DNA of 42,486 nucleotides from assembly GCA_020851595.1 (NCBI GenBank), contig JADZCK010000026.1, forward strand, positions 1 through 42,486. Direction: 5' to 3'. This document shows positions 11,111 through 30,233 of the stretch, one piece after another. The translations under genes were made by a program, and so were the position numbers. The notes under the pieces are model-generated. The model searched no databases. It was given only the letters and a program-made list of their open reading frames with translations, and was not told the DNA's origin. Within the stretch, counting starts at the first letter, position 1. Each line of letters starts with the position of its first letter. Source of the DNA: Candidatus Nomurabacteria bacterium (lineage in GTDB: Bacteria > Patescibacteriota > Minisyncoccia > Phycocordibacterales > UBA9973).

Positions 11111-11220
11111 ACTGTCATGTTAGCATATTTTAGTGTATTATTAAGTCATACTTGTCCCGTACCAAATTTTTGATTACGGGATATAAAGATTAAAATTAAT
11201 ATTAAAATTTTGGTACTGGG

Positions 11221-11998: not shown

Positions 11999-12088
11999 AT
12001 TTTATTGGGTCGCGTGGTCGCGCGCGTTAGGACGATATTCGAGCGAATCGACGATGCAACGATTTACATCCCGAGCTTCAAAGATTGT

Positions 12089-12125
12089 TACCCCACACCT
12101 GCTCTCACTACATCTAGTAAATAAT
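12089..12125. repeat. ACCCCACA-family repeat, copy A0
   Basis: TTACCCCACACCTGCTCTCACTACATCTAGTAAATAA, close to TTACCCCACACTTGCGCTCACTATATCTAAAAAATAA at 20525. Confidence 0.8.
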
Positions 12126-12144
12126 CTAGGCTATAAAAAGAAAG

Positions 12145-13338
12145 TTATAAACTGTCTTGAAATTCACCCTTCGTCGCTTGAAAGTTGTTTATTTCTGTCT
12201 GAGACACAGCTTCGCCACGAGGAAAATCTGTAGTTAGAGGATTAATAGGTGACCCGTTTTCAAACATGGCATATTGAAGATGGGGACCGGTAGAAATCCC
12301 TGTTGATCCTACATATCCGATCACGTCACCTTGCTCAACCGTTGCTCCGGTCTCTACGTCTTTGGCAATCTTTGAAAGATGAGCATACTGAGTAAGGTAG
12401 TTCCCGTGTTTAACTTCAACTGTGATGCCCAAACCTCCCTTTGATCCTGCAACGGTCACTTTGCCATCAGCAGTAGCAATAACTGGTGTGCCTGAGTCAG
12501 CCGCATAATCAATCGCTCGGTGTGGTGTGACTTGCTTAGTCACAGGATTGGTACGCTTGTAACTAAATCCGGAGCTTATACGAGCGTAATTAAGTGGCGA
12601 TTTAAGAAACTGGCGAGCAAGAGACTTTCCCTCAGAATCATAAAATTTATCATTGTAACGAAAAGCGGTATATGTTTTGTCGCCGTTTGTGAATTTTGTA
12701 GCCAGTATTCTTCCTGCGCCTGCGTCCTTGCCATCAAGAGTTCGCTTTTCATACACAACAGAAAAAGAATCTCCCTCGCGTATGTCAGTTGCGAAATCAA
12801 TATCGCTTGAAAAGACATCTGCAATTCCCATAGTTGTCTTGTCTTCGAGTCCTACAGATTGTGCCGCTAAAAACAGAGAGTCGGTAATCGTTCCTTTGGC
12901 TGTCGCATTCTCAATCACATAAGGAATTTCTTCCTCCGTAGCAACGAAAGCATCTTCCTGCTTTTTTACATGAACCACCGTATCACTATTTAATGGATAC
13001 TCCATCGCTGCAAATGCTTCTTGGACAAACACGAGCTTGAGGACCTTTCCGGCGTTCATTTTTGTAAAATCAAAAACATCCTTCGAGGAGCTAAGGATGG
13101 AGTACGCTTGCTCATGGGGAACATTCATACCAGTCATTACCTCGGCGAAGGTATCTCCTGGTTCAATTTTATACTCTTTTACTATACCCTGAGGTAGATC
13201 GCTCTGAGGCAGTAATTGAAGCGCCTCACCTTGCTTTGATACTGCTTTTACATTCTCCGATGCTCCAATTTTGATGCTGACGAGGGGGATGGTCGCTACA
13301 AGCGCGAGCCCAAATCCCCACAGGGCAAATTTCTTCAT
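12145..13338 (-). CDS. M23-family metallopeptidase with LysM/OapA-like region
   Basis: YKIEPGDTFAEVMTGM...HRAIDYAADSGTPVIATADGKVTVAG...HLSKIAKDVETGATVEQGDVIGYVGSTGISTGPHLQY. Confidence 0.88.
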   Translation of the reverse strand: MKKFALWGFGLALVATIPLVSIKIGASENVKAVSKQGEALQLLPQSDLPQGIVKEYKIEPGDTFAEVMTGMNVPHEQAYSILSSSKDVFDFTKMNAGKVLKLVFVQEAFAAMEYPLNSDTVVHVKKQEDAFVATEEEIPYVIENATAKGTITDSLFLAAQSVGLEDKTTMGIADVFSSDIDFATDIREGDSFSVVYEKRTLDGKDAGAGRILATKFTNGDKTYTAFRYNDKFYDSEGKSLARQFLKSPLNYARISSGFSYKRTNPVTKQVTPHRAIDYAADSGTPVIATADGKVTVAGSKGGLGITVEVKHGNYLTQYAHLSKIAKDVETGATVEQGDVIGYVGSTGISTGPHLQYAMFENGSPINPLTTDFPRGEAVSQTEINNFQATKGEFQDSL

Positions 13339-13395
13339 AGGTTATATATTGTAGCGAAAAATGCCGAGCTTATCAAGCTCCTAAAAGCCCTTATT

Positions 13396-15333
13396 CTATG
13401 AGGTTTTAAACAATCTTAGTCCGTTAAGTATTACCAGAATCGCCACTCCGGTATCGGCAGCAATGGCAATGCCGAGGTTCGATATACCAAAGACGGCAAG
13501 GACGATGAAGGCGAGCTTGGAAATGAGTGCTGCGGTCACGTTCTGTTTGACTGTACGGAGTGCTTTCTTTGAAAGTCCTACGGCATATGGGATGTTCAGG
13601 ATGTTGTCATTCATGAGAGCAATGTCAGCCGTTTCAATTGCCACATCAGACCCTTTTGCTCCCATAGCAATACCGACATTTGAAAGTGCCAAAGAGGGGG
13701 CGTCATTGACTCCGTCCCCGACCATCGCCACCGATCCGTATTTGTCTTTGAGCATCTGAATCTTCTTCACCTTTTCATCGGGAAGAAGAGACCCGTGTGC
13801 TTCCTTGATGCCGAGAGTTTCTGCAACGTATGAAGCAGTGTGCTGATTGTCCCCCGTAAGCATAATAGAAGCCACTCCCATTGCAGTAAGTTTCTCAATA
13901 GTCTGCTTAGCTTCATCTTTTATCCTGTCTGAAATGGCAAGAGCACCCATGATTTTGTCGCCTTCGCTTACAAGGACCACGGTCTTGCCTTCACGCTCAA
14001 GCTTTTCTGTCTTTTCCAGAATTTCCTTGGTTGTGACACCATGGGCATCCATGAGCTTTAAATTGCCGACGCAGTGCTCCAGATCGTCGCAAACCATGCA
14101 GGTTGCCTTTCCACCTTTTCCCGCAATATTCTGATAATCCTGCATAGAGTGAGGATTGATCCCTTTTTCTTTTGCATAGGCGAGAATACTTTTCGAGAGC
14201 GGATGTGAAGAAAACTGCTCAACACCTGCAGCATCTTCAAGGACGTCTTTTTCTGTGAAGCCATTGAAAGCGATCACATCTGATATGTATGGCTCCCCGA
14301 GAGTGAGCGTGCCGGTTTTGTCGAACGCAACAGCCCTGACATTCTTGAGCTCCTCAAGATGCTTACCTCCTTTGATGAGCACACCTCGATGCGATGCTCC
14401 ACCGATCGCCGACGTGATGGCGACGGGAGTGGAAATGACAAGAGCACATGGGCATGCGATGACGAGAAGCGTGATCGCCCTCTCAAGCCATATTGCAAAA
14501 GGTTCACCGGTTATGAGAGGTAAGGCAGCAGCAAGGATGAGAGCGATTACAACCACTGCTGGTGTATAGTATTTCGCAAAACTATCGATAAATTCCTGCG
14601 TAGGAGCTTTTGCCTTCTGTGCCTGCTCGACAAGGGCTATGATTTTTGAAAAAGTGGAATTCTTGCTCTCCTTAGTCACCTCAATTTCTAAATATCCATT
14701 TTCATTCAGGGTTCCCGCAAAAACAGTGTCACCTTCTCGCTTGTCCTTCGGAATAGATTCACCGGTGATAGTTGCTTCATTTACCGCTGATAGACCTTTA
14801 ACAACTTTGCCGTCGAGTGGTATGAGTTCTCCGGGCTTTACCTGCACCTTCTGTCCGACAAGCACTTCGCTTACTGGAATAGTCTTTCCATCAAGAAGCG
14901 TTGCAGTCTGTGGCGACTTATGAAGAAGTGCTTGGAGTGCCCTGCGGGACCTGTCTATACCATAATCCTCAAATGCTTCCGCGAGTGAGAAAAAGAATAT
15001 TACAGCTGCTGCTTCGGGTAGCTCTCCAAGATATATCGCACCGAGCGAAGCAATCACCACGAGAAAATCAATGTTGAGAAATTTCTGTTTTGTGAGTCCA
15101 CGCCATGCGCCCTTGATTACATAGATGCCCCCTGAAGCAATGGCGAGGGAGTAGACCGCTGTCACTATCTCTGGATTGAATCCGGAGAGATTGAGAAAAA
15201 AACCTACAACAACGGAAATCCCCGCGACCCAGGTAAGGAGTTTTTTCCAATTCACACTCAATGACGAAACCGCAGACTTATCTGTCTCGGGTTCGCAATG
15301 GTCACATGTGTTGTTTTGGATTTGGCTTGGCAT
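13396..15333 (-). CDS. Heavy-metal P1B-type ATPase (CadA/ZntA-like)
   Basis: CPC motif [51 protein letters not shown]. No complete N-terminal HMA domain seen. Confidence 0.9.
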   Translation of the reverse strand: MPSQIQNNTCDHCEPETDKSAVSSLSVNWKKLLTWVAGISVVVGFFLNLSGFNPEIVTAVYSLAIASGGIYVIKGAWRGLTKQKFLNIDFLVVIASLGAIYLGELPEAAAVIFFFSLAEAFEDYGIDRSRRALQALLHKSPQTATLLDGKTIPVSEVLVGQKVQVKPGELIPLDGKVVKGLSAVNEATITGESIPKDKREGDTVFAGTLNENGYLEIEVTKESKNSTFSKIIALVEQAQKAKAPTQEFIDSFAKYYTPAVVVIALILAAALPLITGEPFAIWLERAITLLVIACPCALVISTPVAITSAIGGASHRGVLIKGGKHLEELKNVRAVAFDKTGTLTLGEPYISDVIAFNGFTEKDVLEDAAGVEQFSSHPLSKSILAYAKEKGINPHSMQDYQNIAGKGGKATCMVCDDLEHCVGNLKLMDAHGVTTKEILEKTEKLEREGKTVVLVSEGDKIMGALAISDRIKDEAKQTIEKLTAMGVASIMLTGDNQHTASYVAETLGIKEAHGSLLPDEKVKKIQMLKDKYGSVAMVGDGVNDAPSLALSNVGIAMGAKGSDVAIETADIALMNDNILNIPYAVGLSKKALRTVKQNVTAALISKLAFIVLAVFGISNLGIAIAADTGVAILVILNGLRLFKTS

Positions 15334-15336
15334 TGA

Positions 15337-15534
15337 TTATTTGTTACCGCTCTTGCTCTTTGCGGCAGCCTTTAACTCTTTCCAAAAAGCTTTGTGTATC
15401 GACATTGTATCTTTCAGATGTTTTCTGACCAACTTCTTAACGTCGGTTTTCGCATCAGTGAATACCTCTTTGTGAATACGTACCTCTTCGTTAGTGTGAT
15501 CTTTTAAAGATTTCAATATTTTTTGAATGTTCAT
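15337..15534 (-). CDS. Small hypothetical protein
   Basis: 65-aa intact, highly charged ORF in the operon, adjacent to the ATPase. Confidence 0.5.
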   Translation of the reverse strand: MNIQKILKSLKDHTNEEVRIHKEVFTDAKTDVKKLVRKHLKDTMSIHKAFWKELKAAAKSKSGNK

Positions 15535-15548
15535 GAATTTAAATTAGA

Positions 15549-16211
15549 TTAATAGCTAACATAATACTTAATTTTAGCATTTGTCGTGAGGTCAGACACC
15601 CATTGCTGTGCTTCAGACTGGAATTTCTGTTGCTTTAGTTGCTCGCTGATCTGCTTTCTGAAATCCTCCATTTTCACATCTTTCGGAAGAGTAGCTTTTG
15701 AATCTTTGATGTATGCATCTATTTCTGCCTCGCTTACAGCCACTTTGTCAGCAAGCAATTTTTCAAGCTTCTTCTGAATGGTGATCTGCTCTCTTAATTT
15801 TTCTTCTGTAAGTCCTTGTTGAGCAAGCGCAGCTTCAAGTGTGCCTCCTTGGCTTGCTACCTGGGCTTTTATTTTCTCAATTTCTGCATCAATTTCTTCT
15901 TTTGAGACATCTATTTTCTGCTTGTTTAATTCGGTCTCGATAAGTTTTTTATCGATGATAGCCTCAAGAGCCTGCTTGCCACCTTGCTTCTCCAGTTCCT
16001 TGATAACTGAAAGACGGCTGATCGGACTGCCGTTTACCGTTGCGGCCACAAAGACACCTTTAGCAAAGAACAATGCAATGAGGATAAGAACAACTGCGAC
16101 ACCGATCGCAATAACGAGCGGTTTGGGCTTCTTAAATTTCAAGTTTACATACCCTGATTTGTGTTCTTGCGGGAAGTTCTGTGTTTCTAATTTATTTATG
16201 TCCTGTTCCAT
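15549..16211 (-). CDS. Membrane-anchored SurA-N-like chaperone domain protein
   Basis: VNGSPISRLSVIKELEKQGGKQALEAIIDKKLIETELNKQKIDVSKEEIDAEIEKIK. Confidence 0.75.
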   Translation of the reverse strand: MEQDINKLETQNFPQEHKSGYVNLKFKKPKPLVIAIGVAVVLILIALFFAKGVFVAATVNGSPISRLSVIKELEKQGGKQALEAIIDKKLIETELNKQKIDVSKEEIDAEIEKIKAQVASQGGTLEAALAQQGLTEEKLREQITIQKKLEKLLADKVAVSEAEIDAYIKDSKATLPKDVKMEDFRKQISEQLKQQKFQSEAQQWVSDLTTNAKIKYYVSY

Positions 16212-16222
16212 ATTTTTATATC

Positions 16223-16972
16223 TTAATTATTAATTTTAAGAGCATCGTCTAACATTTTTTTGAATTCCTCATATCCTCTTGGATTCTCAATCTTTTTGCC
16301 GTTGAGGAAGAAGGTTGGGGTACCTTGAATGCCTAATTTTGTTCCAGTATTTTTATCACGTTCAATGCGATTATTAACCTCTTGCGAAGTTACATCTTGT
16401 TGAAATTTGGTGAGGTCGAGGCCAAGCTGTTTCGCATATCCTTCAAAAATCTCAGGGGTAGCGTTTTGCTTTTCTCCCCAATCTCTCTGGTTTTCAAAGA
16501 CAATATCGTGCATCTCCCAGTATTTTCCTTGTTTGCCGGCGGCTTCAACGGCAGATGCTGATGTCATGCTGTTTTTGTGTCCGGGGAGCGGAAAGTATCT
16601 TACAACAAATTTCACCCTATCTTTATATTCTTCAGACAAGCGTTTTACCACAGGATAGTACGCGCCACATGCTTCACATTCGAAATCAAGATATTCAACA
16701 AGCGTGACTGTCCCTTCTTTATTCCCCTTAACCCAATCATCCGATGCAACCGTGAGAAGTTCACTAGTTGGAACAGTCGGTCGGGTCGCTCCATACCAGA
16801 AAAGTCCGCCAATTGCTCCGGCAATGACGAGTATCACCGCGAACCTTTTTGTCCATTTTTTAACTTTATTTGAGTTTTGATGCGACTGTTCTTCTTTGGC
16901 TCTTTCTTGCCGCCTTAGTTCTTTTCGCTCTTTTTTGGTGAGAGGTTTATTATTTTGTTCATTTAATTCCAT
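16223..16972 (-). CDS. DsbA-family thiol oxidoreductase, membrane-anchored
   Basis: VTLVEYLDFECEACGAYYPVVKRL...GIQGTPTFFLNGKKI (CEAC active site). Confidence 0.9.
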   Translation of the reverse strand: MELNEQNNKPLTKKERKELRRQERAKEEQSHQNSNKVKKWTKRFAVILVIAGAIGGLFWYGATRPTVPTSELLTVASDDWVKGNKEGTVTLVEYLDFECEACGAYYPVVKRLSEEYKDRVKFVVRYFPLPGHKNSMTSASAVEAAGKQGKYWEMHDIVFENQRDWGEKQNATPEIFEGYAKQLGLDLTKFQQDVTSQEVNNRIERDKNTGTKLGIQGTPTFFLNGKKIENPRGYEEFKKMLDDALKINN

Positions 16973-16995
16973 AATGGTATATAAATTAATGTTAA

Positions 16996-18072
16996 TTACT
17001 TAACGAGCTTTTCTGGTCCCACTGCCCGATCATATCTTCTGCCATCAAACATAATTGTGGGTATTTTGATCGTTTTTATTCTGTTCTCTACAATCTCTTT
17101 TTGACTAGCTAATCTTGTTTGTATTTCGCCTGAATTGACAGCTTGCTGTATCTTGTTGCGATCATCTTCTGAGTACCCAAAATCAGTAAGCCACGAAAGG
17201 ATTTTATCTTCGGCCTCCTTTGCGGTATACATCGTGTTGAATTTTATCTGATAGTCCACATTGTCTGTATCTTTGCCAGTGAACATCCTTTCCAAAATCT
17301 GCCAATCAGCTGGTGTTTTTGCCGAAGGTAATGGATAGAGCTTCACCGCCTCCAGATATGAGGCAATCATTTTAGAATGTGGAAAGCGATAACCACCCGA
17401 CTGTTTATTGTCCGGTATTGGGTATACCAGGTAGGTTAGGTTGTAGCGGTCGGCAAAATCAGTCTCCTTAATATTACCAAACAACTTGGCGCAGAATTTA
17501 CAGCTTGGATCGATTATCTCAAGAGCGACAGATTTGCTAGAGTCATATGGTTTGTAGTAGGTGTTGGACTCGGAAATAAATTCGTTCGGGTTCCACTCTT
17601 TAAATCGGTTTGGGATCATTGTGATCGTCTCGCCCAAGGTAAGCACTCCGTCTTTAGCCCACATGAGCACTTGTCCTTCTTTAACTGACACCCAGAATCC
17701 TGGTTTTCCAGAGTTTATTCCACAACCCCCACCACCCAATGAACAGGACTCTGGATTATTTGGGTTACAAGTGTCATAGACGAACAAATTGAGACCACTA
17801 TTAAGCACCACTAAAAGACTCCACATGCTTAGAATCACAAAAACCGAAGCCATGACCCCGATCCATCGGTCAAGAAACCTGGCCAAGCGTGGCTTGGTGA
17901 TAATAAATTTACCCAAAAGCTTGGCCTTGGCTTCTTCCTGAAAATTAATATCACATGGCCGGAAAGTCATTTTCCTCAGTGTGCATTTCCAGGCTTTCTT
18001 TGCCAAAGATCGGTAGCTGGCTGAAAATATTCCCAAGATTGCGAAGATGATAAATGCTGCAATGCAAAACAT
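16996..18072 (-). CDS. Membrane protein with thioredoxin-like CxxC domain
   Basis: N-terminal TM segments; LEIIDPSCKFCAKLFGNIKE; IKTIKIPTIMFDGRRY. Confidence 0.7.
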   Translation of the reverse strand: MFCIAAFIIFAILGIFSASYRSLAKKAWKCTLRKMTFRPCDINFQEEAKAKLLGKFIITKPRLARFLDRWIGVMASVFVILSMWSLLVVLNSGLNLFVYDTCNPNNPESCSLGGGGCGINSGKPGFWVSVKEGQVLMWAKDGVLTLGETITMIPNRFKEWNPNEFISESNTYYKPYDSSKSVALEIIDPSCKFCAKLFGNIKETDFADRYNLTYLVYPIPDNKQSGGYRFPHSKMIASYLEAVKLYPLPSAKTPADWQILERMFTGKDTDNVDYQIKFNTMYTAKEAEDKILSWLTDFGYSEDDRNKIQQAVNSGEIQTRLASQKEIVENRIKTIKIPTIMFDGRRYDRAVGPEKLVK

Positions 18073-18077
18073 ATTTT

Positions 18078-19274
18078 TTATGAGTTAATGATAATTGTTT
18101 TAAGTGTCTTCACAAAGAACTCGACTTGTTCTTGAGTATTATTTAGACCGAGCGATACTCTCACCAAAGGCGGATATTTTTTCAGATTTTTCAAGTAATA
18201 GTGACAACAGAAATAGCCACTTCGAACCATGATGTTCTGTGTGGAGAGAAAAATTGCCAGACGATGAGCATCGATCTTGTCGGACCAGAAGCTCAAGATG
18301 GGACTCGGGGAACTATTAATGAGCTTAAGTGTCGGAATTTGAGATAGCTCATTAAAAAGAAACTGTGCGAGGTTTTTTTGGTGAGTATTCGTAGATACTC
18401 CTTCAGGCTTGTAACTTTTGAGCCAGTCGATACAAGTATTTAACCCAACTATTCCGGCAAAATCCTGAAGACCAATTTCCAGTCGACTACTCAAATCATC
18501 AGAATCAGATATTAGTCGGTATGTTTCGATTTCCACGTCTTCCACCATACCACCGCCGATAAATCCAATATCGAGTGTTGTGAGAAGTGATTTCTTAATG
18601 ACAATCACCCCAATGCTGGGGCCGTACATTTTGTGTCCGGAAAAAAATAGTGCGTCAAAATCACTCTTTGAGATGATGTCCCAATTATGACTTATACCTT
18701 GGGCGGCATCAATGAGAATAATGCCACCTGTCTTGTGGAGATCATTTGCAATTTCCTTCAGATTCACAAGTTCCCTACCATCAATGTTTGACATGCTGTT
18801 TAAGACAGCAATCGCATTTGAAATTTTCTCCTTGTCATAAGACAATGATCCATTTTCTGAACGTTCCAAAACAACTCGTGGAATATTGAGCCTTTTCGCA
18901 AATGCCATGGTTGGCAGAAATACCGAGTTATGCTCAATGTCCGAGGTAATGATTTTCGCAAATCTCCGCGGTAGCTGACCGAGAACCAGATTTATACCGT
19001 AGGTGGTATTAAGTGTGAATGCTACTGCATATTCGGAAGGCGACTTACCTACAAAGGCCAGCACTTTTTTTCTTGTTTCTTGTATTTTCTCGTCCAATTT
19101 TATACCCCAGTCATACTTTACCCGCCCACCACAAGAGTTATATTCTTGATAATACTCCGCCATAGCATCAATAACCTGCTGTGGACGCATTGTTTGGCAC
19201 GCTGAATCAAGATAGATAGTTTCTTTACGGAGATATTCGAAATTCTGAATATTATTTGTTAATTGTTGATTCAT
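18078..19274 (-). CDS. Class V aminotransferase / cysteine desulfurase-like
   Basis: IYLDSACQTMRPQQV...TLNTTYGINLVL...GGIILIDAAQG...DALFFSGHKMYGPSIGVI. Start set at MNQQL (19274). Confidence 0.85.
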   Translation of the reverse strand: MNQQLTNNIQNFEYLRKETIYLDSACQTMRPQQVIDAMAEYYQEYNSCGGRVKYDWGIKLDEKIQETRKKVLAFVGKSPSEYAVAFTLNTTYGINLVLGQLPRRFAKIITSDIEHNSVFLPTMAFAKRLNIPRVVLERSENGSLSYDKEKISNAIAVLNSMSNIDGRELVNLKEIANDLHKTGGIILIDAAQGISHNWDIISKSDFDALFFSGHKMYGPSIGVIVIKKSLLTTLDIGFIGGGMVEDVEIETYRLISDSDDLSSRLEIGLQDFAGIVGLNTCIDWLKSYKPEGVSTNTHQKNLAQFLFNELSQIPTLKLINSSPSPILSFWSDKIDAHRLAIFLSTQNIMVRSGYFCCHYYLKNLKKYPPLVRVSLGLNNTQEQVEFFVKTLKTIIINS

Positions 19275-19276
19275 GA

Positions 19277-20020
19277 CTATTTTTCTTGTAATGCCTGCTC
19301 GACGATTTGTTTTATTGAAGCATATGGCTGTGCGCCAGAGAGTGGATATTTTTTGCCATTTTTGGCAACAACAATACTCCACGGTGTGCCATTGCCACCA
19401 GTTGCTTGAGCATTTTGCACCTCGTCTTCTATGTGTTTATCGTATTTAGTACTTGCAAGACATGTGCTAAATTTCGTCTTATCTAAACCGACATACTCTG
19501 CGATCTTTGGTAGCTCTGCAAGGTCGAGTCCGTTGTTTGCAGGAGTGACTTCATAGAGGCGATCAGCATATTCCCAGAATTTGTCGTTTCCTCCCTGGTC
19601 GTTTGCACACTCAAGCGCAACAGCTTCTTTTCGCGCTTTAGAGTGAAGCTGATCAAGTGGAAAATGTCTGTACACCCAAGCTACTTTTCCGTCTTTGCCG
19701 TAGGTATCGATTACTTCTTTCATTGTTGTATGAAATCTCTTACAGAACGGGCATTCGGTATCCGAGTATTCGACTATCTTCACAGGTGCGTTTATATCAC
19801 CTCGGATGTGATCTTTAGATGTGACAGGTGTCATCTGTTCTAGGTCACCTGTTTGCTGAGCCACTTGCTGTTGTTGTGGCTGATTTGCAGTACCGGCCGT
19901 AGGTGCTTTTCCACCACTGTAAATTACTGCTCCTGCAATGATTACTCCAGCAATAACTACAGCTATGGGCATTGCCAGCGGATGTGTATTTTTTTGTGTT
20001 TGTTGATTATTTTCTTCCAT
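19277..20020 (-). CDS. DsbA-family thiol oxidoreductase
   Basis: VKIVEYSDTECPFCKRFHTTMKEVI...GGNGTPWSIVVAKNGKKYPLSGAQPY (CPFC). Confidence 0.9.
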   Translation of the reverse strand: MEENNQQTQKNTHPLAMPIAVVIAGVIIAGAVIYSGGKAPTAGTANQPQQQQVAQQTGDLEQMTPVTSKDHIRGDINAPVKIVEYSDTECPFCKRFHTTMKEVIDTYGKDGKVAWVYRHFPLDQLHSKARKEAVALECANDQGGNDKFWEYADRLYEVTPANNGLDLAELPKIAEYVGLDKTKFSTCLASTKYDKHIEDEVQNAQATGGNGTPWSIVVAKNGKKYPLSGAQPYASIKQIVEQALQEK

Positions 20021-20084
20021 AGCGACATAAAGTTAATAGTAAAAGCCGCAGTCCGAAAAACTGACGGCCAGCATTTCTTTGCCG

Positions 20085-20489
20085 CTAGAAAAGTTTAGGG
20101 TTTAGAATACCCCTTGAGAAAGCTTCCTTTAGAGGATTCGGGATGGAGATCCTGTTTTTTAGGAAAAAGTTTCTGTATAAATTTGAAAGAGGCGGATTGG
20201 ATGTATAAAAGATTTCACGCACGCCAAGCAATGCAAGCAGAGCGAGTAGAGAAAAGACGAGAGAAAGTGCTTCCTTTGCCGGAAGGACAGTAAACATATT
20301 TTGCCATGCCTGTATGTGCTCCATTGGCGACATTTTACAGATAGAGCTGTGGCCCGGCATGAACGGACAGTTGACCATCTTAGGTCCATAGTGACCCGAC
20401 ATTCCAAAGTGAGATAACCCAAAAAAAACCGTAAAGAGAGTGAGTCCTACAATAGCGAAAGTTAGGATTTTGAAGATTTTTGATCGCAC
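20085..20489 (-). CDS. Small membrane protein
   Basis: Two TM segments; MEHIQAWQNMFTVLPAKEALSLVFSLLALLALLG, similar in plan to the ORF at 24251-24868. Confidence 0.6.
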   Translation of the reverse strand: MRSKIFKILTFAIVGLTLFTVFFGLSHFGMSGHYGPKMVNCPFMPGHSSICKMSPMEHIQAWQNMFTVLPAKEALSLVFSLLALLALLGVREIFYTSNPPLSNLYRNFFLKNRISIPNPLKEAFSRGILNPKLF

Positions 20490-20524
20490 GTTGTTAATTA
20501 TATATTTTTATTGGCTAATCGTCA

Positions 20525-20975
20525 TTACCCCACACTTGCGCTCACTATATCTAAAAAATAACCCTGAACCTCCATTTTGTCTGTAAATGCAGGTGACCAC
20601 CATTTTCCACCCTTTTTAAATGGGGGTTGACCACCGTTTTTTCACCGTTTTTAAACGGTGCTACCCCACACTCTCACTCGATATATCGCACAAAAAGAGG
20701 TTCCCGTTAATTTCCCGTTATTACGGGAACTTGGAAAGGCCTACCCCACAGTCTCATTCACTATTTCGAGCCACTTCACCGATAACCGTAATCACCGTAA
20801 TTTTGGACCGGACCAGCCCACCTGTTATTCTCCTGTTCTATCAGGTGAGTGCCCGCTAATTCACCGCTAATACGGGTAGGAGAAACAGGTGCTTATCAGG
20901 AGTTACAGGCTGCGAGGTTTTACCGTAAATGACAGCTTGCGATTATTTCACCCCACCTTGCTCCTCACTATTTCC
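20525..20975. repeat. Cluster of ACCCCACA-family repeats (A1-A4) alternating with six three-armed repeat units
   Basis: A copies near 20525, 20662, 20742 and 20949; units at 20598-20626, 20632-20660, 20700-20730, 20777-20806, 20819-20847 and 20852-20877. Confidence 0.8.
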
Positions 20976-21464
20976 AAGAACCTCTTTAACTTTCTGTGCG
21001 AGGTCACTCGGATCGAAGCGTCCATGATTGCCCAATCTCAAGAGCGGCACACCGACTGATTTGAGAATACGCTCGACTTCATGGTCCCGATCTTGTCTGT
21101 CGGAACGCTCATGCGTTTGGTCATCAAGCTCAATGGCGAGCTTCGGAGCGATGTACGCCCGGTCGCAGAGCACGAAATCTACCGACTTACCGTTGATGTG
21201 GCTGAACGCACCGCGCCAGTTCTGGCCGGTTACCTTATGGTCAACGATGGTTGGGAGATGCACTTGGGCGAAAATCAGATAGTCCTTGCCGACAGTCTGG
21301 ACCAAAGCGTCATGGCACTCATGCTCTGCCCGGGAGAGGAAGAAAGGCTTTCGTTTGTAGAGGTAGCCTTTGGGACCAATTGGACCAGTGCCACCTTTTC
21401 TAAAAAACTCAATGAGTGCGATAGCTGCGATAATTATGACTAATAAAATAATAAGTTTTGTCAT
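20943..21464 (-). CDS. DUF2726-like (restriction-endonuclease-like fold) protein
   Basis: YLYKRKPFFLSRAEHECHDALVQTVGKDYLIFAQVHL...VDFVLCDRAYIAPKLAIELDDQTH. Confidence 0.8.
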   Translation of the reverse strand: MTKLIILLVIIIAAIALIEFFRKGGTGPIGPKGYLYKRKPFFLSRAEHECHDALVQTVGKDYLIFAQVHLPTIVDHKVTGQNWRGAFSHINGKSVDFVLCDRAYIAPKLAIELDDQTHERSDRQDRDHEVERILKSVGVPLLRLGNHGRFDPSDLAQKVKEVLGNSEEQGGVK

Positions 21465-21468
21465 TGAT

Positions 21469-21807
21469 TTATTTTTGAATCTGCTCGTAGTCTTCCTTAT
21501 TTCCGATCATGCGAATATATCCCTCAGTACCGTCTACAGAAATAGCGCCGCATGCACATGGAGTCATTTTCTTATGCGTATTCCAGTAAATCTCTGTGCC
21601 ACACTTTTTACACCTGATGTATGCCTCTTTCTTATTTTTCTTGTTGTAAGCATCAAACTCGTCTTTGGTGATTGGCCGATAGACTTTATCCATGATCGTC
21701 AAAAGTGCCGTCGCCTCGTCCATAGCGGTTTGATCATCGATATCCTGACCGGGATTCTCTTTACGCCAGATTGCTTTGTATTCTTCTAGTGCTTGTTTTG
21801 AAATCAT
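21469..21807 (-). CDS. Small protein with zinc-ribbon-like C-terminus
   Basis: N-terminus YKAIWRKENPGQDIDDQTAMDEATALLTIMDKVYRPIT; CKKCGTEIYWNTHKKMTPCACGAISVDGTEGYIRM. Confidence 0.7.
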   Translation of the reverse strand: MISKQALEEYKAIWRKENPGQDIDDQTAMDEATALLTIMDKVYRPITKDEFDAYNKKNKKEAYIRCKKCGTEIYWNTHKKMTPCACGAISVDGTEGYIRMIGNKEDYEQIQK

Positions 21808-21903
21808 ATAATTTGGGGTTAGTTTGGTTATTCCTCGAATACTTGCCGAAAAGCGTACACGAGGGCAAACAGGTGGCAAGAAGGCCTAAGATAAAGGGGT
21901 GGT

Positions 21904-22293
21904 TTAACTCTGAAACTCCACCTCAAACGGATACATTCCCATTCCGCATGAACCTTGAAGCGTGCCGAGTTTTCCTTCGCCAATATCAATATCCGTTGCT
22001 CCTGACTGCGGTAAAGACTTGCTTATATTCAAGCTCGGAATACGAACTGATGACGAGCAGTCGAAGGTTCCTTTTGTGTTGAATCGAATGATTGTTGGAA
22101 TGCCTGCCTTGGCAATACTCTTTCGTGGCTGATATCCGCCTTTAGCACTTATCTCTATAATTTGTTTTCCATCAACAATGGTGACATTGTTTGCATTTGC
22201 TACCTGTCCGGCATTACCACCACTTCGGGTGAGCATAAAAGCACCTCCAATGAGGACGACTGCAGCGATGATTGAAATGGTAGTTGCTTTCAT
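21904..22293 (-). CDS. Membrane-anchored cupredoxin-like protein
   Basis: GGYQPRKSIAKAGIPTIIRFNTKGTFDCSSSVRIPSLNISKSLPQSGATDIDIGEGKLGTLQGSCGMGMYPFEVEF. Confidence 0.8.
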   Translation of the reverse strand: MKATTISIIAAVVLIGGAFMLTRSGGNAGQVANANNVTIVDGKQIIEISAKGGYQPRKSIAKAGIPTIIRFNTKGTFDCSSSVRIPSLNISKSLPQSGATDIDIGEGKLGTLQGSCGMGMYPFEVEFQS

Positions 22294-22306
22294 AAGGACA
22301 ATTATA

Positions 22307-23326
22307 CTAGAAATTAAAGACTGGCGGTATAACCCCAATCACGACCAAGCTATTAATAAGATTGAAGAGTGCGAACATGATGACGATCAGTCCGGCCGTC
22401 TTGAAGAATACTCCGGCCTTTGAACTCTTTTGAATACTGAACGAGCTGAAGCTGATCAAAGCCAGGACTGGCAGTGTACCCAATGCGAATGAAAGCATCG
22501 TAAGTCCACCACTGAGGAAACTCCCCGTTGTTAGGGTGTAGAGCTGCATCGATTGCGTAAAGCCACACGGCAGGAAGAATGTTGCCACACCCACAAGAAG
22601 CGGAGTGAGAGTATGGTTGAACTTTGAAACCCCGTGCGCATGCTTTGCGATAAACTTTGGCATTGATGGCTGAAGTTTCTTGGCCCAATGGAAGGTATCA
22701 AGAAGATTGATACCGAGGATAAGCATTACGATGCCAATGATTAGACTCAAGATAAATGTAGCTGAGGTGTTCAGAGTAAAGGCTGAACCAATAGCACCAA
22801 TTACTCCACCGAGAATAAAGAACGCTACTATTCGGCCACCATGGAACATGAGCTGAGGTCGTATCTTATCGCCCTCTTTTGCAAACGTTGCAGACATAGA
22901 GAGGACCAAGCCACCAACAACGGCCATACACGTTGAGAGCGACGCAATGATTCCGATCACAAAAGCTGTTCCGTAGGTTACGTTACCAGCACTCACAAGA
23001 TTTACGATTCCCATTTTCTGCAGAACGACAAAGAGTACGGCAAAGCCGAGAGCGATCGGGACCGCAATCTTGAAGTCCCCCCATTTGGCATTATGTTGAT
23101 GTTTCTCGATTGAAACTGTGTAGCCATGAGGCTTTAGCGGGATAGTCAGCTCTTCCGCAATTTGCTCTTCCGTCTTGTCACCGAACTCTCCGGTAACTTC
23201 TACCGAATGATTTTTAAGGCTTGATTTAACATGAGTGATATTGGGCAGGTCCCCAAGCTCGCTTTCTGTCATGAGCACACAAGCATTGCAGTGCATGCCG
23301 TGTACGTGAAAGGTTAATGTTTTCAT
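22307..23326 (-). CDS. HMA domain plus sulfite-exporter TauE/SafE-like (DsbD/CcdA-like) membrane protein
   Basis: FHVHGMHCNACVLMTESEL then multi-TM region with GGRIVAFFILGGVIGAIGS and FLPCGFTQSMQLYTLTTGS. Confidence 0.8.
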   Translation of the reverse strand: MKTLTFHVHGMHCNACVLMTESELGDLPNITHVKSSLKNHSVEVTGEFGDKTEEQIAEELTIPLKPHGYTVSIEKHQHNAKWGDFKIAVPIALGFAVLFVVLQKMGIVNLVSAGNVTYGTAFVIGIIASLSTCMAVVGGLVLSMSATFAKEGDKIRPQLMFHGGRIVAFFILGGVIGAIGSAFTLNTSATFILSLIIGIVMLILGINLLDTFHWAKKLQPSMPKFIAKHAHGVSKFNHTLTPLLVGVATFFLPCGFTQSMQLYTLTTGSFLSGGLTMLSFALGTLPVLALISFSSFSIQKSSKAGVFFKTAGLIVIMFALFNLINSLVVIGVIPPVFNF

Positions 23327-23348
23327 GATTTGATAATATTTCTCAGGA

Positions 23349-23570
23349 TTATATAACCTCTCCTTTTTTCTCAAGCATCATGTGATGGATGGTTGCAATC
23401 TGAAGCCATATTGCGATGAGGATAAGAATTGCCGAACATGCTAATGCATCCATTTTTGTAATTCCGAACACTAGATTGTCACCACCACCGATGAGTGTCC
23501 CCACAAATGCGATTACTCCAATAAAACCCGTGATAACACTTCCTACATGCATTACTTTTGATAGTTTCAT
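23349..23570 (-). CDS. Small two-TM membrane protein
   Basis: 73 aa, two hydrophobic segments, within the copper gene cluster. Confidence 0.6.
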   Translation of the reverse strand: MKLSKVMHVGSVITGFIGVIAFVGTLIGGGDNLVFGITKMDALACSAILILIAIWLQIATIHHMMLEKKGEVI

Positions 23571-23600
23571 ATATTTTTATGTTTAATTATTTTAATAAGT

Positions 23601-24209
23601 TTATTTATACCAAGTTGCGTACCAGCCCTGCATTTGCTGAATCTCTTTTGCCTGGGAGCTAATAATGTTTTTTGCGAGCTGCTGCATTTCGGGCTGATTG
23701 CTTCCAGGTTCAAGCATGTTCGCCATCATGATTGCCATTTGATGATGTGGAATCATCTGCTCTATGAATGCCTTATCGAAGTCTTGTGCATTTCTAAGAG
23801 CAGTAAGGTCTTCTGACCCACCCATGTGCATACCACCTTGCGACATCATTCCGCCCATAATCGCACTACCTTTTGGCACATCTTTTCCAAACCAGTTCTT
23901 ATACCAGCTTTTCATCTGCTGATTCTCAGATTCTTGTGCGCCTATAATCGCCTGAGCCAATGCTTTTATTTCAGGTCGCTTTGCTTTTTCTAAAGCAAGA
24001 TTAGCCATAGCGATTGCCCCTTCGTGGTGAGGAATCATCTGTTCGATAAAGTGCTTATCAAGCGCATTTGCAGTTACAGCATTATTGGTTGAATCTTGAA
24101 CAGTATTTGTGACAGTCGAGCCGCCACGCATCATTGGGCTGATAAACATCCCAAGAATGAGACCGACCACAATTCCTCCTATAACGAATCCAATTTTATT
24201 ATTGTTCAT
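23601..24209 (-). CDS. DUF305 protein (CopM-like)
   Basis: Two FIEQMIPHHEGAIAMA/FIEQMIPHHQMAIMMA motifs, Met/His rich. Confidence 0.9.
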   Translation of the reverse strand: MNNNKIGFVIGGIVVGLILGMFISPMMRGGSTVTNTVQDSTNNAVTANALDKHFIEQMIPHHEGAIAMANLALEKAKRPEIKALAQAIIGAQESENQQMKSWYKNWFGKDVPKGSAIMGGMMSQGGMHMGGSEDLTALRNAQDFDKAFIEQMIPHHQMAIMMANMLEPGSNQPEMQQLAKNIISSQAKEIQQMQGWYATWYK

Positions 24210-24233
24210 ATATTTTTATAGTTAAGTTAATAG

Positions 24234-24434
24234 TTACTCTCCGGCATACTTCACAGGATCGGCTGTAAAGTGATTCTTGCAGTGGATAGCGCAAAAGTAG
24301 TAGGTTTTACCTTTGTAGTCTGCAGTTGCCTTAATGCTGTCTGCATCAAGCTCCATGCCGCAGACGAGATCGAAAGCCACGTCTGGGTCAGCAGGGTTAT
24401 GGTTTTTATTATGTTTGTGATTTTTTGTTTGCAT
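24234..24434 (-). CDS. YHS-domain metal-binding protein
   Basis: DLVCGMELDADSIKATADYKGKTYYFCAIHCKNHFTADPVKY. Confidence 0.9.
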   Translation of the reverse strand: MQTKNHKHNKNHNPADPDVAFDLVCGMELDADSIKATADYKGKTYYFCAIHCKNHFTADPVKYAGE

Positions 24435-24868
24435 AGATTTTTAAGATTAGAAATAGTAATAGAAGCTCTATGCAACGAAGGACTGTTTTCAAATAACGAA
24501 AGCCAACGGGTAATTTTCCGAGGACGACTGAGCTGGCGTTCCGGATCATGCCGGACTCGCCAAGATACCAGATTGGTTAAAAGTAAACCCCGATGTTTTA
24601 TATAGATAAATCCTACGCTTAGAAATAGGGCCAAGAGTAATGCAAGGAGAAAAATAAACGGAATTGACGGGACCACGCTGAAGAATGAAATGAATGCCTG
24701 GATGTGATGGACCGACATCGCCGCAATGTTTTCCGGACATGGAGTATTGTCTACGGATGATGCAATACAACCTGTGGAGTGACCAATTCCATGATTCATT
24801 GAGGTAAAGCCAAACACCCCTATTACTAGGACACTTGTGATTATTAGTAATGAGAGGAGTTTTTTCAT
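24251..24868 (-). CDS. Small membrane protein; C-terminal part of the ORF is probably not coding
   Basis: N-terminal TM segments and HHIQAFISFFSVVPSIPFIFLLALLLALFLS; the 3' part overlaps the YHS gene in another frame. Confidence 0.5.
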   Translation of the reverse strand: MKKLLSLLIITSVLVIGVFGFTSMNHGIGHSTGCIASSVDNTPCPENIAAMSVHHIQAFISFFSVVPSIPFIFLLALLLALFLSVGFIYIKHRGLLLTNLVSWRVRHDPERQLSRPRKITRWLSLFENSPSLHRASITISNLKNLCKQKITNIIKTITLLTQTWLSISSAAWSLMQTALRQLQTTKVKPTTFALSTARITLQPIL

Positions 24869-27195
24869 TATAGTTTTTTAGCTTTAATGCGAAGCGAGTT
24901 CGACACGACTGACACTGACGACATGGCCATAGCAAATCCTGCAAAGACTGGATTCAAGAGCCATCCGAAAACCGGATACAAAGCTCCTGCTGCAAGCGGT
25001 ATTCCTACAATGTTATAGATAAAGGCCCAGAAGAGATTCTGCTTGATGCCACGCATAGTGATCTTTGAAAGCTTGATTGCTTTCACAAGCTTTGAAATAT
25101 CTCCACCAAGAAGCGTGATGCCAGCCGATTCGATCGCCACATCTGTTCCAGTCCCCATGGCGATACCCACATCTGCCTGAGCGAGTGCAGGAGCATCGTT
25201 TACGCCATCACCAGCCATAGCAACCACTCGACCTTGTGACTGTAGTTCTTGAATCTTTTTCAGCTTATCTTCTGGAAGCACATGAGCGACTACGTCATCG
25301 ATTCCCACTAGAGAAGCAATATATTTAGCTGCCTTTTCATCATCTCCGGTAAGCATGACTACTTTGATTCCGAGAGCATGGAGATTTTTTACTGCCTCGA
25401 CCGACTCTGCTTTTATTTCATCAGCTACCATAACAAAACCGAGAACCTTCTCTTTGATAGAAAGAATGACTGGCGTTTTACCCTGGGAAGTGAACTCGTT
25501 AAGTTTTGCGGTATCAAAGGAAACCTTAAGATCGCTTACGAGCTTAGCGTTGCCTACAAAGTATTCAGTACCTTTAACTATTCCCTTGAGACCCTTGCCT
25601 TGTATACCCTCGAAATTTGAAATGTCTGATGTTGAAATGTTTTTCTCTTGGGCGTAATTTACAATCGCATGAGCAATTGGATGCTCTGATTTTTTCTCAA
25701 GTGAAGCGAGAATTGAAACAAGTTCATCGTCTTTTAAATCAGAAAGGTTTTGTATATCAACGAGTGTTGGCTTGCCCTTGGTAATGGTCCCTGTTTTATC
25801 AACCACAACTGTATTTACTTTATGGAGCTTTTCAAGTGTTGCTGCATCTTTAATGAGAATGCCTTCTTTTGCACCTTTACCAACTCCAACGATAATTGCC
25901 GTGGGAGTGGCGAGACCAAGAGCACAGGGGCATGCAATGACTAAGATTCCCACAAATGATACGAGGCCGAATGAGAGAGCTTGAGAAAAACCAAGATACT
26001 GTGAACCGATAATAAGCCATGCTCCCAGGGTCAGGAATGCGATTACCAAAACTATTGGCACAAAGATTGATGATATTTTGTCAGCGAGTGCTTGAATTGG
26101 AGCTTTACTGCCTTGGGCGTCTTCCACCATCTTTATGATCTGAGCCAGGAGAGTTTCGGACCCGACTTTTGTGGCTTTGAATGTGAATGACCCACTTGTG
26201 TTTATGGTTCCAGAAACAACACTGTCTCCAGTCTTCTTTTGTGCTGGCATCGGCTCTCCGGTAACCATAGATTCATCTACGAATGATGAGCCTTCAGTAA
26301 TCACACCGTCTACAGGAATCTTTGCGCCTGGCTTAACGATAATGAGATCGCCATGCTTTACGTCATTCACTGAAATCTCCATTTCTTTTCCGTCACGAAT
26401 CACCAATGCTGTTTTGGCTTGGAGATTAAGGAGCTTTTCTATAGCATCACCGGTCTTTATCTTTGATCGAGCTTCAAGATATTTACCGAGCGCGATAAAG
26501 GTGATAACCACGATCGTCACATCGTAGTATTGATACTCAACATTAATAAAAGGCCGGAGAACGTCTTCAAATGCGGTGACTGCAAAGCTGTATAAAAAGG
26601 CGGCACTCGTTCCGATACCGATCAATGTATCCATGTTTGCCTTGCCGTATCGTAGGAACCTGTAAAAACCAAGGAGGTAAGGCTTACCAACTACAAAGAG
26701 TATATATGTTGCAAATATTGGAAGAAGATGGTGAAAAAACTCTTTGATCGTATAGCTCATTTCTCCGACGACACCATATTGAGCAAGAATGTCCCATCCC
26801 ATAACGATAGCCGCAAAAATTGCCAAAGGTATTGCCGAGATCACCTTTGTTCTCATATCAGCTACCTCGGCAAGTTTCTCTTTCTTTGACTGATTGAGTC
26901 CAAGGTGTGCAGCATGTTCATCTGCCGACATACCCATATCCTTAGCTGATTGATCACCATGCTCGTGTGACATCTCCTGGTCCAGAGCAAGAGAGTAACC
27001 AAGCGGTTCTATCTTCTTTGAAAGTTCTTGTGCGCTTATTTTTGATTCATCAAAAGCTACCTTTGCTTTTTCGGTCCCATAGTTTACTTCAGCAGAGTGA
27101 ACTCCTTCGGTTTTCTTAAAGGTTTTCTCAATGATGCCAGCACAGGAGGCGCAATGCATTCCTTTTATTCTGTAAGTTTTGGTGGGATGATTCAT
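24868..27195 (-). CDS. copA: Cu(+)-translocating P1B-type ATPase
   Basis: [90 protein letters not shown]. Start set at MNHPTK (27195). Confidence 0.95.
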
Positions 27196-27199
27196 ATTT

Positions 27200-27472
27200 T
27201 TATTTACGCTTAAGCTTATAAACCTTAAGAATCTCATCGACCGCTTTCTTTTCGCTCCCATGCTTCATTTGATGAACAACGTGTGTGGAAAGGTGGTTTT
27301 CAAGAACCAGGCCTTCAATTCCAGTAAGCGCCTCTTTAATTGCCGACGCTTGAGTAATAATGTCGATGCAATACTTCTCATCCTCAACCATTTTCTGGAG
27401 GCCCCTAATCTGTCCCTCAACAATTTTTAATCGACGAATAGCTTTTGTTTTGATATCTTGTCTCATATACAT
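27200..27472 (-). CDS. CsoR/RcnR-family metal-sensing repressor
   Basis: [56 protein letters not shown]. Confidence 0.93.
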
Positions 27473-27477
27473 ACATA

Positions 27478-27494
27478 ATACCCCCTAGGGGTAT
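27478..27494. promoter_or_regulatory. CsoR-type operator
   Basis: ATACCCC-CTA-GGGGTAT perfect 7-bp half-sites just upstream of the csoR-like gene. Confidence 0.85.
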
Positions 27495-27570
27495 AGACTG
27501 TCAAATCAGTAAATGCAAACATTGGAAAAAAGGCGAATTCGTTGTAGATTTGTAGCAAATTACTATTACC

Positions 27571-28212
27571 ATGACTCCAGCTGCCAAAATCAGGTTTGTG
27601 AAAAACCGAATTGAAGATCAGGTCGCCATAAGCCCGAAAGGGCCTATTGTTCTGCCTGTGCATGATATTTTCACTAATTCTTTTACCTTTCTGGCCAAGG
27701 AGCAATATTTGATACTCAAAAAACTTCAGGAGGACGGCTACATAAAAGGCCTCTTTCCTCTTGAGAAAAAGGAGGTCTGGTTTGAAATGACCGGCAAGCC
27801 TCTCGATCCGTTCGGCCTCATCGCCATGAATGCTGCCAAAGGCAGGAAGCCCGCGCGAGTGGCTGTAAAAGATACTCTGCTCATGACCAAGGAGCTTGAG
27901 CCCGACTTCGAGGTGAGCGGTCTTGCCTCATATTCTGACGGGACCATTCGCTACAAAGACACGATCGTCCCTCTCCGTGGCCAGATCAAGGATTTGTGCC
28001 GCCTGTTCATGCGCAATCCGAAACGGCTTATTACCCGCGAGGACATCAAGGAGAACATCATCGCCGCCGACAAGCGCAAATCTGTTCCGAAAATCACCAT
28101 TTCCAAATATGTAAGCGAGCTTCGTAATTCATTGAGAGTTCATTTCAAGAAAGACGTGATCTACAGCCAGAAAGATGAGGGCTGGTACTTCGACCCGAGC
28201 AAAAAGAGCTAG
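27571..28212 (+). CDS. Putative DNA-binding protein with C-terminal winged helix
   Basis: Trans_reg_C-like tail: LCRLFMRNPKRLITREDIKENI...ITISKYVSELRNSLRVHFKKDVIYSQKDEGWYF. Confidence 0.65.
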   Translation: MTPAAKIRFVKNRIEDQVAISPKGPIVLPVHDIFTNSFTFLAKEQYLILKKLQEDGYIKGLFPLEKKEVWFEMTGKPLDPFGLIAMNAAKGRKPARVAVKDTLLMTKELEPDFEVSGLASYSDGTIRYKDTIVPLRGQIKDLCRLFMRNPKRLITREDIKENIIAADKRKSVPKITISKYVSELRNSLRVHFKKDVIYSQKDEGWYFDPSKKS

Positions 28213-28243
28213 AAATCCGATTCATTTCTGAATATTGAATGAG

Positions 28244-28272
28244 CGCACTCACCGAAACTGTGAGTGCGTTTT
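28244..28272 (+). terminator. Rho-independent terminator
   Basis: CGCACTCAC-CGAAACT-GTGAGTGCG-TTTT. Confidence 0.8.
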
Positions 28273-28313
28273 CATATTGAATACGCGCATTACTAATCTA
28301 GCGAAATTACTCT

Positions 28314-28586
28314 ATGACAAGAAAATTAAAGCCTCGGTCCCACCAGGACGACGAGGCATCAGTGTTTACTACTTACGACCTTGGAGTATCGGCGGCACTC
28401 TTGTGCCTCGGGTACAAGCTTATTCGCTTGGACCGTAACGATCCTCGCAAGGCTCTTTTCGTATTCAAAAAAGATGCCGAAATCGATAGCCACGCCAATC
28501 AATACTTTTCAGATCAACTGAAAGTCAAAGCTCGGTCGTTCTTTGACAGCATCAAAGCATTGAAGAATAAGCTTTACTCCGAATAG
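28314..28586 (+). CDS. Small DUF5659-like protein
   Basis: TTYDLGVSAALLCLGYKLIRLDRNDPRKALFVFKKDAEID. Confidence 0.65.
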   Translation: MTRKLKPRSHQDDEASVFTTYDLGVSAALLCLGYKLIRLDRNDPRKALFVFKKDAEIDSHANQYFSDQLKVKARSFFDSIKALKNKLYSE

Positions 28587-28588
28587 CC

Positions 28589-28855
28589 ATGCTGCTTTTG
28601 GACGTGGACATCAGGAAGTTCCAGGAGCTCTACAAGGCTCGTTTTGGAATGGATATAAGCAAAGAAGAAGCCCTGGCAAAAGGCACTCAGCTTGTGCGCC
28701 TGATGGAGCTTGTCTATAAGCCGATGTCCGAAGAAGAACACGAGCAGATCCACAAGCGACGGCTCGAAACGCTTCCCTTACTAGCACATAAATTACAAAA
28801 TCATGAATCAGAATCTAGAGTCACTTACGATCAAAGAGGAACTCAACAAAATTAA
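28589..28855 (+). CDS. Small conserved recombinase-associated protein
   Basis: FQELYKARFGMDISKEEALAKGTQLVRLMELVYKPMSEEEHEQ, similar to the N-terminus of the ORF at 21469-21807. Confidence 0.6.
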   Translation: MLLLDVDIRKFQELYKARFGMDISKEEALAKGTQLVRLMELVYKPMSEEEHEQIHKRRLETLPLLAHKLQNHESESRVTYDQRGTQQN

Positions 28856-30164
28856 GGAACGCATTACTCCACCCGAACCGATCACCCTCGATCAGGTTCG
28901 CCAAGTGTTGGACCTTACCATCAAAAAAGATGATGGAAATAAAATCATTACGTTTCTCGCCATGCTCGCCGCTTACACCGACAACGCGCAATTCAATATC
29001 AGTTTTAATGCTCCATCGTCATCAGGTAAGAGTTTTATTCCCCTCGAGATCTCGAATCTTTTTCCGCAAGAGGATGTAATGAAGCTCGCCGGAGCATCGC
29101 CTACGTCATTTCTCCACGAGAGTGGCGTGTACAAAAAGGAAACGAATGAACGTTTTATCGACCTCTCGAGGAAAATTATTATCTTCCTCGATATGCCACA
29201 TGCGACCCTTTTAACAAAACTTCGATCTCTCTTATCTCACGACGAGAAAGAGACGAGACATAAGATCACCGACAAAACAGAGAAAGGCGGTACACGCACA
29301 AAGACCGCTGTCATCAGAGGCTTCCCGTCGGTTATATTCTGTTCGGCCAATGCCAAAATGGACCAGCAGGAAATGACCCGCTTCCTGCTTCTCAGTCCTG
29401 AAATAAATCAGGAGAAGATCCTTGCCGGTATTCATCAGTCCTCTCGCAAGGAATCCGACAAAAAGAAATATTATAAAGAGCTCAATGAGAATCCCTTGCG
29501 TAAAGCTCTGATCGAGCGCATCGCTTTAATCAAAGCTGCCGGTGTCGATGAGATTATCATCGAGAATGAGAAAGCTGTTCAGCAGAGATTCCTCTCTCAC
29601 ATACAAAATCCTCAACCAAGAAATCAGCGCGACATCAAACGTATCTATTCGATCATCAAGGCGGTTGCGCTTTTGAATGTCTGGCATCGTAAGCGCGAAG
29701 GCACTACGCTCTACGCATCCGAACTAGACATTGATACCGGCTTTGAGATTTGGGATAAGATATCGCTCTTTCAGGAGCTCGAGATATCGCCCTACCTCTA
29801 CGAATTCTACTCGCAGATTATTCTTCCCCTTTGGAACCGGGACCAGATCGATGGGTTTGGCGATCCTGTATCTGAAGAAAAGAAAATAGGTGTTAGCCGA
29901 CAAGATATTCTCAAGAAATATGCCCACGTCTATGGCGGTAACCTCGGCATGTTCAGACTTCGCTATGACTACCTGCCGAACATCGAATCGGCTGGCCTCA
30001 TCTTCCAGGAACCGGACCCGAATGACCGTCGGCAACTCCTGACGTATCCAACAACTGCCATAAGAAAGCTTGAGAAAGCTGAGGAAATAAATAGTGCGTA
30101 CGAGTCGGGGGTAGACAATGCCAAGCCTGAATCTGAGATAAAAGCCGAAGATGTTCCGTTCTAA
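28803..30164 (+). CDS. P-loop ATPase, phage/plasmid primase-helicase-like
   Basis: FNAPSSSGKSFIPLEI Walker A; KIIIFLDMPHATLL Walker B-like; GFPSVIFCSANAKMDQQEMTRFLL. Confidence 0.7.
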   Translation: MNQNLESLTIKEELNKIKERITPPEPITLDQVRQVLDLTIKKDDGNKIITFLAMLAAYTDNAQFNISFNAPSSSGKSFIPLEISNLFPQEDVMKLAGASPTSFLHESGVYKKETNERFIDLSRKIIIFLDMPHATLLTKLRSLLSHDEKETRHKITDKTEKGGTRTKTAVIRGFPSVIFCSANAKMDQQEMTRFLLLSPEINQEKILAGIHQSSRKESDKKKYYKELNENPLRKALIERIALIKAAGVDEIIIENEKAVQQRFLSHIQNPQPRNQRDIKRIYSIIKAVALLNVWHRKREGTTLYASELDIDTGFEIWDKISLFQELEISPYLYEFYSQIILPLWNRDQIDGFGDPVSEEKKIGVSRQDILKKYAHVYGGNLGMFRLRYDYLPNIESAGLIFQEPDPNDRRQLLTYPTTAIRKLEKAEEINSAYESGVDNAKPESEIKAEDVPF

Positions 30165-30233
30165 GGGACTTGCAATTACCTCACGAAGAAGGTAACACAG
30201 CAACACCCTTTAGCATTAACATTACCCAATTAT

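Follow-up and report, generated by a model that had tools for sequence, protein, structure and literature searches.

The window analysed here, the whole stretch of 42,486 bases, contains an array of short three-arm units interspersed with four copies of a 26-bp repeat, and on balance we regard this array as probably the replication origin, or a replication-control region, of an SCC-like integrated element. The three-arm array is real, and the four interspersed repeat copies and additional units give it an extent of about 20526 to 20974, in the context of a mobile element of about 20 kb. The units, the repeats, the element, the association between them and their conservation are all features read from the sequence itself.

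The original prediction described a cluster of three-armed repeats with differing arms and a single layout, and the units are present in the sequence as described; the 26-bp repeat that alternates with them had been overlooked. All well-formed units share one orientation, direct-direct-inverted (DDI) on the plus strand and IDD on the minus strand. In the best register the layout on the minus strand comprises an arm of 6 nt, an A/T-rich loop of 5–6 nt, a second 6-nt arm, an A-rich linker of 5 nt, often AATAA, and a third 6-nt arm. The pitch from arm 1 to arm 2, measured between the starts of like arms, is 11 nt in 15 of 16 compared units and 10 nt in the other. One C:G pair never varies among the 13 units compared. 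Arm identity is 0.87 within a unit, compared with 0.32 between units. A scan with 7-nt arms finds two perfect DDI units in the window, which start at 20632 and 20701; 100 dinucleotide shuffles of 20490–20942 contain none. At the relaxed level, four DDI units are observed against 0.29 expected. Counts of unit pairing against shuffles, made on paralogous units chosen for pairing, are circular for pairing itself, a circularity that does not affect the constant linkers, the pitch or the fixed C:G pair. A looser unit of the same design had been placed at 20777; a unit is indeed found there (unit F), but its three arms are all direct rather than DDI.

Table 1. Features of the array and of the element that surrounds it, with the basis for each assignment.
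Feature	Position	Strand	Basis
Integrated mobile element, about 19.8 kb, contains array	12013-31811		Left-end sequence common with G521, outside host DNA differs; right end tRNA-His in both
Left-terminal module, about 75 bp, plus one 26-bp repeat (12089-12114)	12013-12114	+	Homologous module at G521 left end; related modules by repeat in many genomes
26-bp repeat, left-end copy (fifth)	12089-12114	+	Homologous repeat at G521 left end
26-bp repeat, copy 1	20526-20551	+	Orthologue in G521
Unit Z, three-arm, decayed	20568-20594	-	Decayed in window; G521 orthologue well formed (CCTGCATTTTACCTGCATTTGCAGGTG)
Unit A, three-arm	20598-20625	-	Sequence, DDI scan
Unit B, three-arm, perfect arms CACCGT/ACGGTG/ACGGTG on minus strand	20632-20660	-	Best score in 1.25-Mb scan
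26-bp repeat, copy 2, divergent	20662-20687	+	Sequence, PWM
Unit C, three-arm, perfect arms	20701-20729	-	DDI scan; identical in G521
26-bp repeat, copy 3	20742-20767	+	Sequence, PWM
Unit F, loose, three direct CACCG-type arms	20776-20803		Sequence
Unit D, three-arm	20819-20847	-	DDI scan, 1.25-Mb scan
Unit E, three-arm	20850-20878	-	Both direct arms changed in concert versus G521
Unit G, three direct CAGG arms, partly complementary to unit D	20886-20911		Sequence; inverted-repeat pair I5
26-bp repeat, copy 4, overlaps DUF2726 gene 3' end	20949-20974	+	Sequence, PWM
MCM-like AAA+ helicase gene, C-terminal MarR-like winged helix, putative replication initiator	28803-30164	+	AlphaFold, Foldseek, weak sequence match, homologue search
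26-bp repeat, weak copy inside helicase gene 3' end	30088-30113	-	PWM 17.9; relatives have repeat at same place
Large serine recombinase gene, XisF/CcrB/CcrC-related, 3' end overlaps tRNA-His	30234-31841	+	Profile matches
tRNA-His, integration target	31809-31883	-	Right end in window and G521

The 26-bp repeat has the consensus TACCCCAC-N7-CTCACTATWTC, its two boxes being TACCCCAC and CTCACTAT. It is present in 19 of 380 sampled genomes of the phylum, in which read-backwards control patterns give no match, and a reversed-sequence control of the PWM gives no score above 10. Across 85k species genomes it occurs at 50 places, compared with about 4 expected by chance by our own estimate, mostly in Patescibacteria and also in Planctomycetota, Melainabacteria, Omnitrophota and others. 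We conclude that the repeat is the hallmark of a family of integrated elements, which is found in Patescibacteria and in some further phyla. Many genomes carry it at the helicase gene 3' end, frequently in inverted pairs and in the form of imperfect palindromes; unrelated genes can also have direct-oriented copies, 0.1–5 kb apart, at their 3' ends, and single repeats occur at element ends. The recurrent peptides EIVSxxVG and NSExxGGV arise because the repeat overlaps gene 3' ends in several frames, and the idea that it encodes a protein C-terminus was rejected. A second motif, CCGCAC..TCACTATTTA, occurs once per genome in many relatives; it probably represents a conserved gene with no relation to the repeat and was left aside. 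Searches for the array in plasmid collections and in IMG/VR found no match. Only one IMG/VR contig carries the repeat as an inverted pair (L071:9816-9879, two copies 12 nt apart), with no helicase homologue detected.

The element begins at its left end with GGGTCGCGTGGTCGCGCG, as does a homologous element in a second genome (G521), whereas the host DNA outside the two differs. The core common to both element ends is short, GGGT or TGGGGT. At the right end the order is MCM-like AAA+ helicase gene, large serine recombinase gene and tRNA-His; in relatives, other tRNA genes occupy the 3' end of the recombinase gene. The left-terminal module (12013-12088) reads like a conserved peptide, VRTIIQQQNEYIYIPDLR, and is found in tandem in L079, L085, L088, L103, L123 and others, a recurrence that suggests the accretion of several elements at one place. 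The VRTIIQ..YIYIPDLR peptide seen beside many repeats, which had been a candidate in its own right, is this left-end module and no intact gene. Among the cargo of such elements are metal transporters and restriction-modification genes; in the window, genes for P-type metal ATPases, DsbA/DsbD-like proteins, a cupredoxin and DUF305 proteins at 13396-27261 form a metal or redox island. Little is known of how ultra-small symbiotic bacteria exchange genes, a question to which the cargo of these elements is relevant. Two further observations concern the rest of the window. A reverse transcriptase gene (7682-8656) and two 111-nt repeats (9065-9175 and 9534-9644) make up a likely diversity-generating retroelement, in which the repeats differ at 11 positions, all of them T on the plus strand of the 9065 copy and hence template adenines on the minus strand. 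A LAGLIDADG-type endonuclease gene (35094-35768) has the ribosomal protein L19 gene on one side and tRNA-Leu on the other.

The AlphaFold model of the helicase has a pLDDT of 82.5, and its best Foldseek matches are MCM proteins (E 6e-9); weak sequence matches point to MarR winged-helix likeness at the C-terminus. The helicase of relatives carries a fused Toprim primase part. A helicase search of plasmid and phage collections gave no match. The recombinase matches the XisF, CcrB and CcrC models with E-values from 7e-28 to 2e-12, far below the curated cut-offs, and is therefore related to these proteins but not an equivalog. Most genomes in the phylum sample that contain the helicase gene have it next to the recombinase gene. 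Among the 380 genomes, 15 have the helicase, 19 the repeat and five both, compared with 0.75 expected (Fisher p = 4e-4); in these five, repeat and helicase are always on one contig, mostly 5–15 kb apart. When 16 helicase homologues were compared for PWM-scored repeats, either close to the helicase gene or elsewhere on its contig, all eight with at least 47% identity had the repeat, against none of the eight more distant ones.

A homologous array is present in a Parcubacteria MAG from a different family of the same order (JAAZAU010000011.1, also handled as L138, G521 and G558), where it is surrounded by the same integrated element. The helicase genes of the two elements are 88–92% identical and the serine recombinase genes 89%. 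Over the well-aligned part of the array, identity is 87% in the repeats and 85% in the arms, compared with 64% in the linkers and 58% in the rest. Unit C is unchanged, and in D and E the two direct arms have undergone the same changes, which improve their pairing with the third arm in G521. In units A and B, pairing has been lost between the orthologues, with no compensatory maintenance. Selection on the arms is likely from this comparison, but a strictly maintained two-state hairpin does not follow from it. The G521 array also contains two units that are absent from the window. A small gene family (MISKQALEEFKEIW...) lies beside it (L138:5487-5741), and similar 34-nt starts occur in the window at 21775-21808 and 11078-11111.

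Further occurrences of the units, whose absence had been set beforehand as counting against the original prediction, were found in other genomes. The known set comprises the two full arrays and three single units, in L092 (G132), L094 (G060) and L132; these three, which were first noticed near repeats, lie 50–90 bp from a repeat, and the strand relation between unit and repeat is the same in all five loci. In L094 and L132 the unit begins about 20 nt past the helicase match. Between L092 and L094 arms 1 and 2 co-vary, GCTG/CAGC becoming ACTG/CAGT. An unrestricted scan of 1.25 Mb, with linker weights chosen after units had been seen and scoring partly tuned on known units, returned 12 strong units, ten of them no more than 300 bp from a 26-bp repeat. 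Most repeat-bearing helicase loci have no recognisable three-arm unit, and no convincing one was found at further repeat loci of the order. A weak match in G134 proved to be coding sequence.

We propose that the serine recombinase would excise the element at tRNA-His, and that the MCM-like helicase of the element would then bind the 26-bp repeats as iterons by means of the winged helix at its C-terminus, in the way that SaPI Rep and SCCmec Cch2 bind theirs. The three-arm units would constitute hairpin-forming, helically phased DNA between the repeats, and the hairpins may act once the region is single-stranded, in origin opening, in priming or in limiting initiation. As a whole, the array of 450 bp would serve either as the main origin or for copy control. 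Origin activity and a role for the hairpins are put forward here by analogy, and binding of the repeat by the helicase is suggested by their association. In favour of this proposal we count the adjacency of helicase and recombinase genes, the MCM-like fold and MarR-like C-terminus of the helicase, the likeness of the recombinase to XisF, CcrB and CcrC, the co-occurrence of repeat and helicase, the repeat at the helicase gene 3' end, close to where SaPI and SCCmec have their origins, the units that follow the helicase in L094 and L132, the clustering in the scan, the constant strand relation of unit and repeat, and the conservation of arms and repeats. Against it we count the distance of 8–10 kb between array and helicase gene, seen in both the window and G521, the many repeat-bearing helicase loci that have no units, and the failure to maintain units A and B. 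The context gives good support to the earlier suggestion of a replication or recombination site in a serine-recombinase island: a large serine recombinase at tRNA-His bounds the element that contains the array, and the MCM-like helicase gene has related units beside it. A bolder form of the proposal, which we consider doubtful, is that the units are sequence-free signals read by structure, the replication machinery recognising a switchable single-strand hairpin and not a sequence. Two direct arms and one inverted arm would then be held on a fixed 11-nt pitch while their letters drift in concert; if true, this would be a new kind of origin element.

The array could instead be an operator, in which the repeats bind the helicase or another regulator of the element, the units serve as accessory sites on one helix face, and the array initiates no replication. 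The arm pitch of about 11 nt and the A/T-rich linkers would suit wrapping around a protein, the array sits between genes, simple hairpins are impossible in units F and G with their all-direct arms, and repeats occur alone at element ends. The free variation of the arms between units is a poor fit to one sequence-specific protein, however, and the third arms remain complementary; we consider this reading unlikely.

A transcribed regulatory RNA, in which minus-strand arm 1 would pair with either later arm in a two-state manner and act by attenuation, as an antisense or as a sponge, seems rather improbable. The flanking genes are on the minus strand, every unit has alternative pairings, and the co-variation of arms 1 and 2 between L092 and L094 is consistent with such an RNA; the neighbouring genes differ in every locus, which argues against the leader of one gene, and the hairpins have no following U-run. 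Folding of both strands, as had been proposed, does give better values than shuffles, but modestly so, with z-scores of about -1.6 as RNA on both strands and -2.2 as DNA on the plus strand. Outside tRNAs no Rfam family scores above its gathering threshold, and a relaxed threshold gives nothing credible. These values do not suffice to establish the structured RNA of the original prediction, and its two-state hairpin is best described as a possible switch of the arms, the pairing being kept in D and E, unchanged in C and lost in A and B.

It is quite improbable that the repeats or units are att-like or attC-like recombination sites that collect gene cassettes. Such sites would fit the palindromic form of the repeat at helicase genes and the direct copies that unrelated genes have at their 3' ends, but the element itself is delimited by GGGT and by tRNA-His and has a serine recombinase, a general scan of the ORFs near the array showed no recognisable tyrosine integrase, and the left-end modules repeated beside many repeats fit the accretion of elements. 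Least probable is a mutational by-product, functionless triplets generated by slippage and template switching in hairpin-prone DNA. Although the like changes in the direct arms of D and E are what slippage or conversion would produce, the fixed orientation of unit and repeat in five loci, the conserved linkers, the constant C:G pair and arms as conserved as the repeats speak against it.

In the open literature we found no description of these elements, which does not prove that none exists. They appear to be a widespread, undescribed family of SCC-like elements, characterised by their MCM-like helicase, serine recombinase and diagnostic 26-bp repeat, and they offer a testable candidate origin. 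A close likeness is with the pattern-2 SCC elements, in which an MCM-like helicase gene (Cch2) also lies beside a Ccr-type large serine recombinase gene. In SCCmec the C-terminal domain of Cch2 binds a region of 23-bp direct repeats between cch2 and ccrC, and adjacent inverted repeats could form hairpins that binding does not need (PMC7581432). Direct repeats and potential hairpins downstream of the helicase gene are found there, and here the order is helicase gene, repeat, hairpin unit and recombinase gene. SCCmec inserts at rlmH/orfX, whereas the present element uses tRNA-His; the present element also differs in its inverted pairs of the 26-bp repeat and separate 450-bp array, in three-arm units with free arm sequence, in its occurrence in Patescibacteria and in the Toprim-helicase fusion of relatives.

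The SaPI origin is immediately downstream of the gene for the helicase, which binds the iterons with its C-terminal domain (PMC7581432). The present element would resemble it in having an initiator helicase with predicted iterons at the 3' end of its own gene. SaPI iterons share one sequence, and the SaPI recombination system differs from that of the present element; we know of no three-arm units described in SaPI. Integron attC arrays also consist of direct-oriented sites, each with two 8-bp boxes, close to gene 3' ends, and some are imperfect palindromes. The present element is mobilised by a serine recombinase, and neither attC boxes nor, among the ORFs scanned near the array, a tyrosine integrase were recognised in it. 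Geminivirus iterons consist of two direct and one inverted short site near the origin, with a lineage-specific sequence and one iteron sequence per virus. Here, in contrast, each unit of one array has its own sequence, and the three-arm units raise the question of whether an origin can be marked by architecture instead of sequence.
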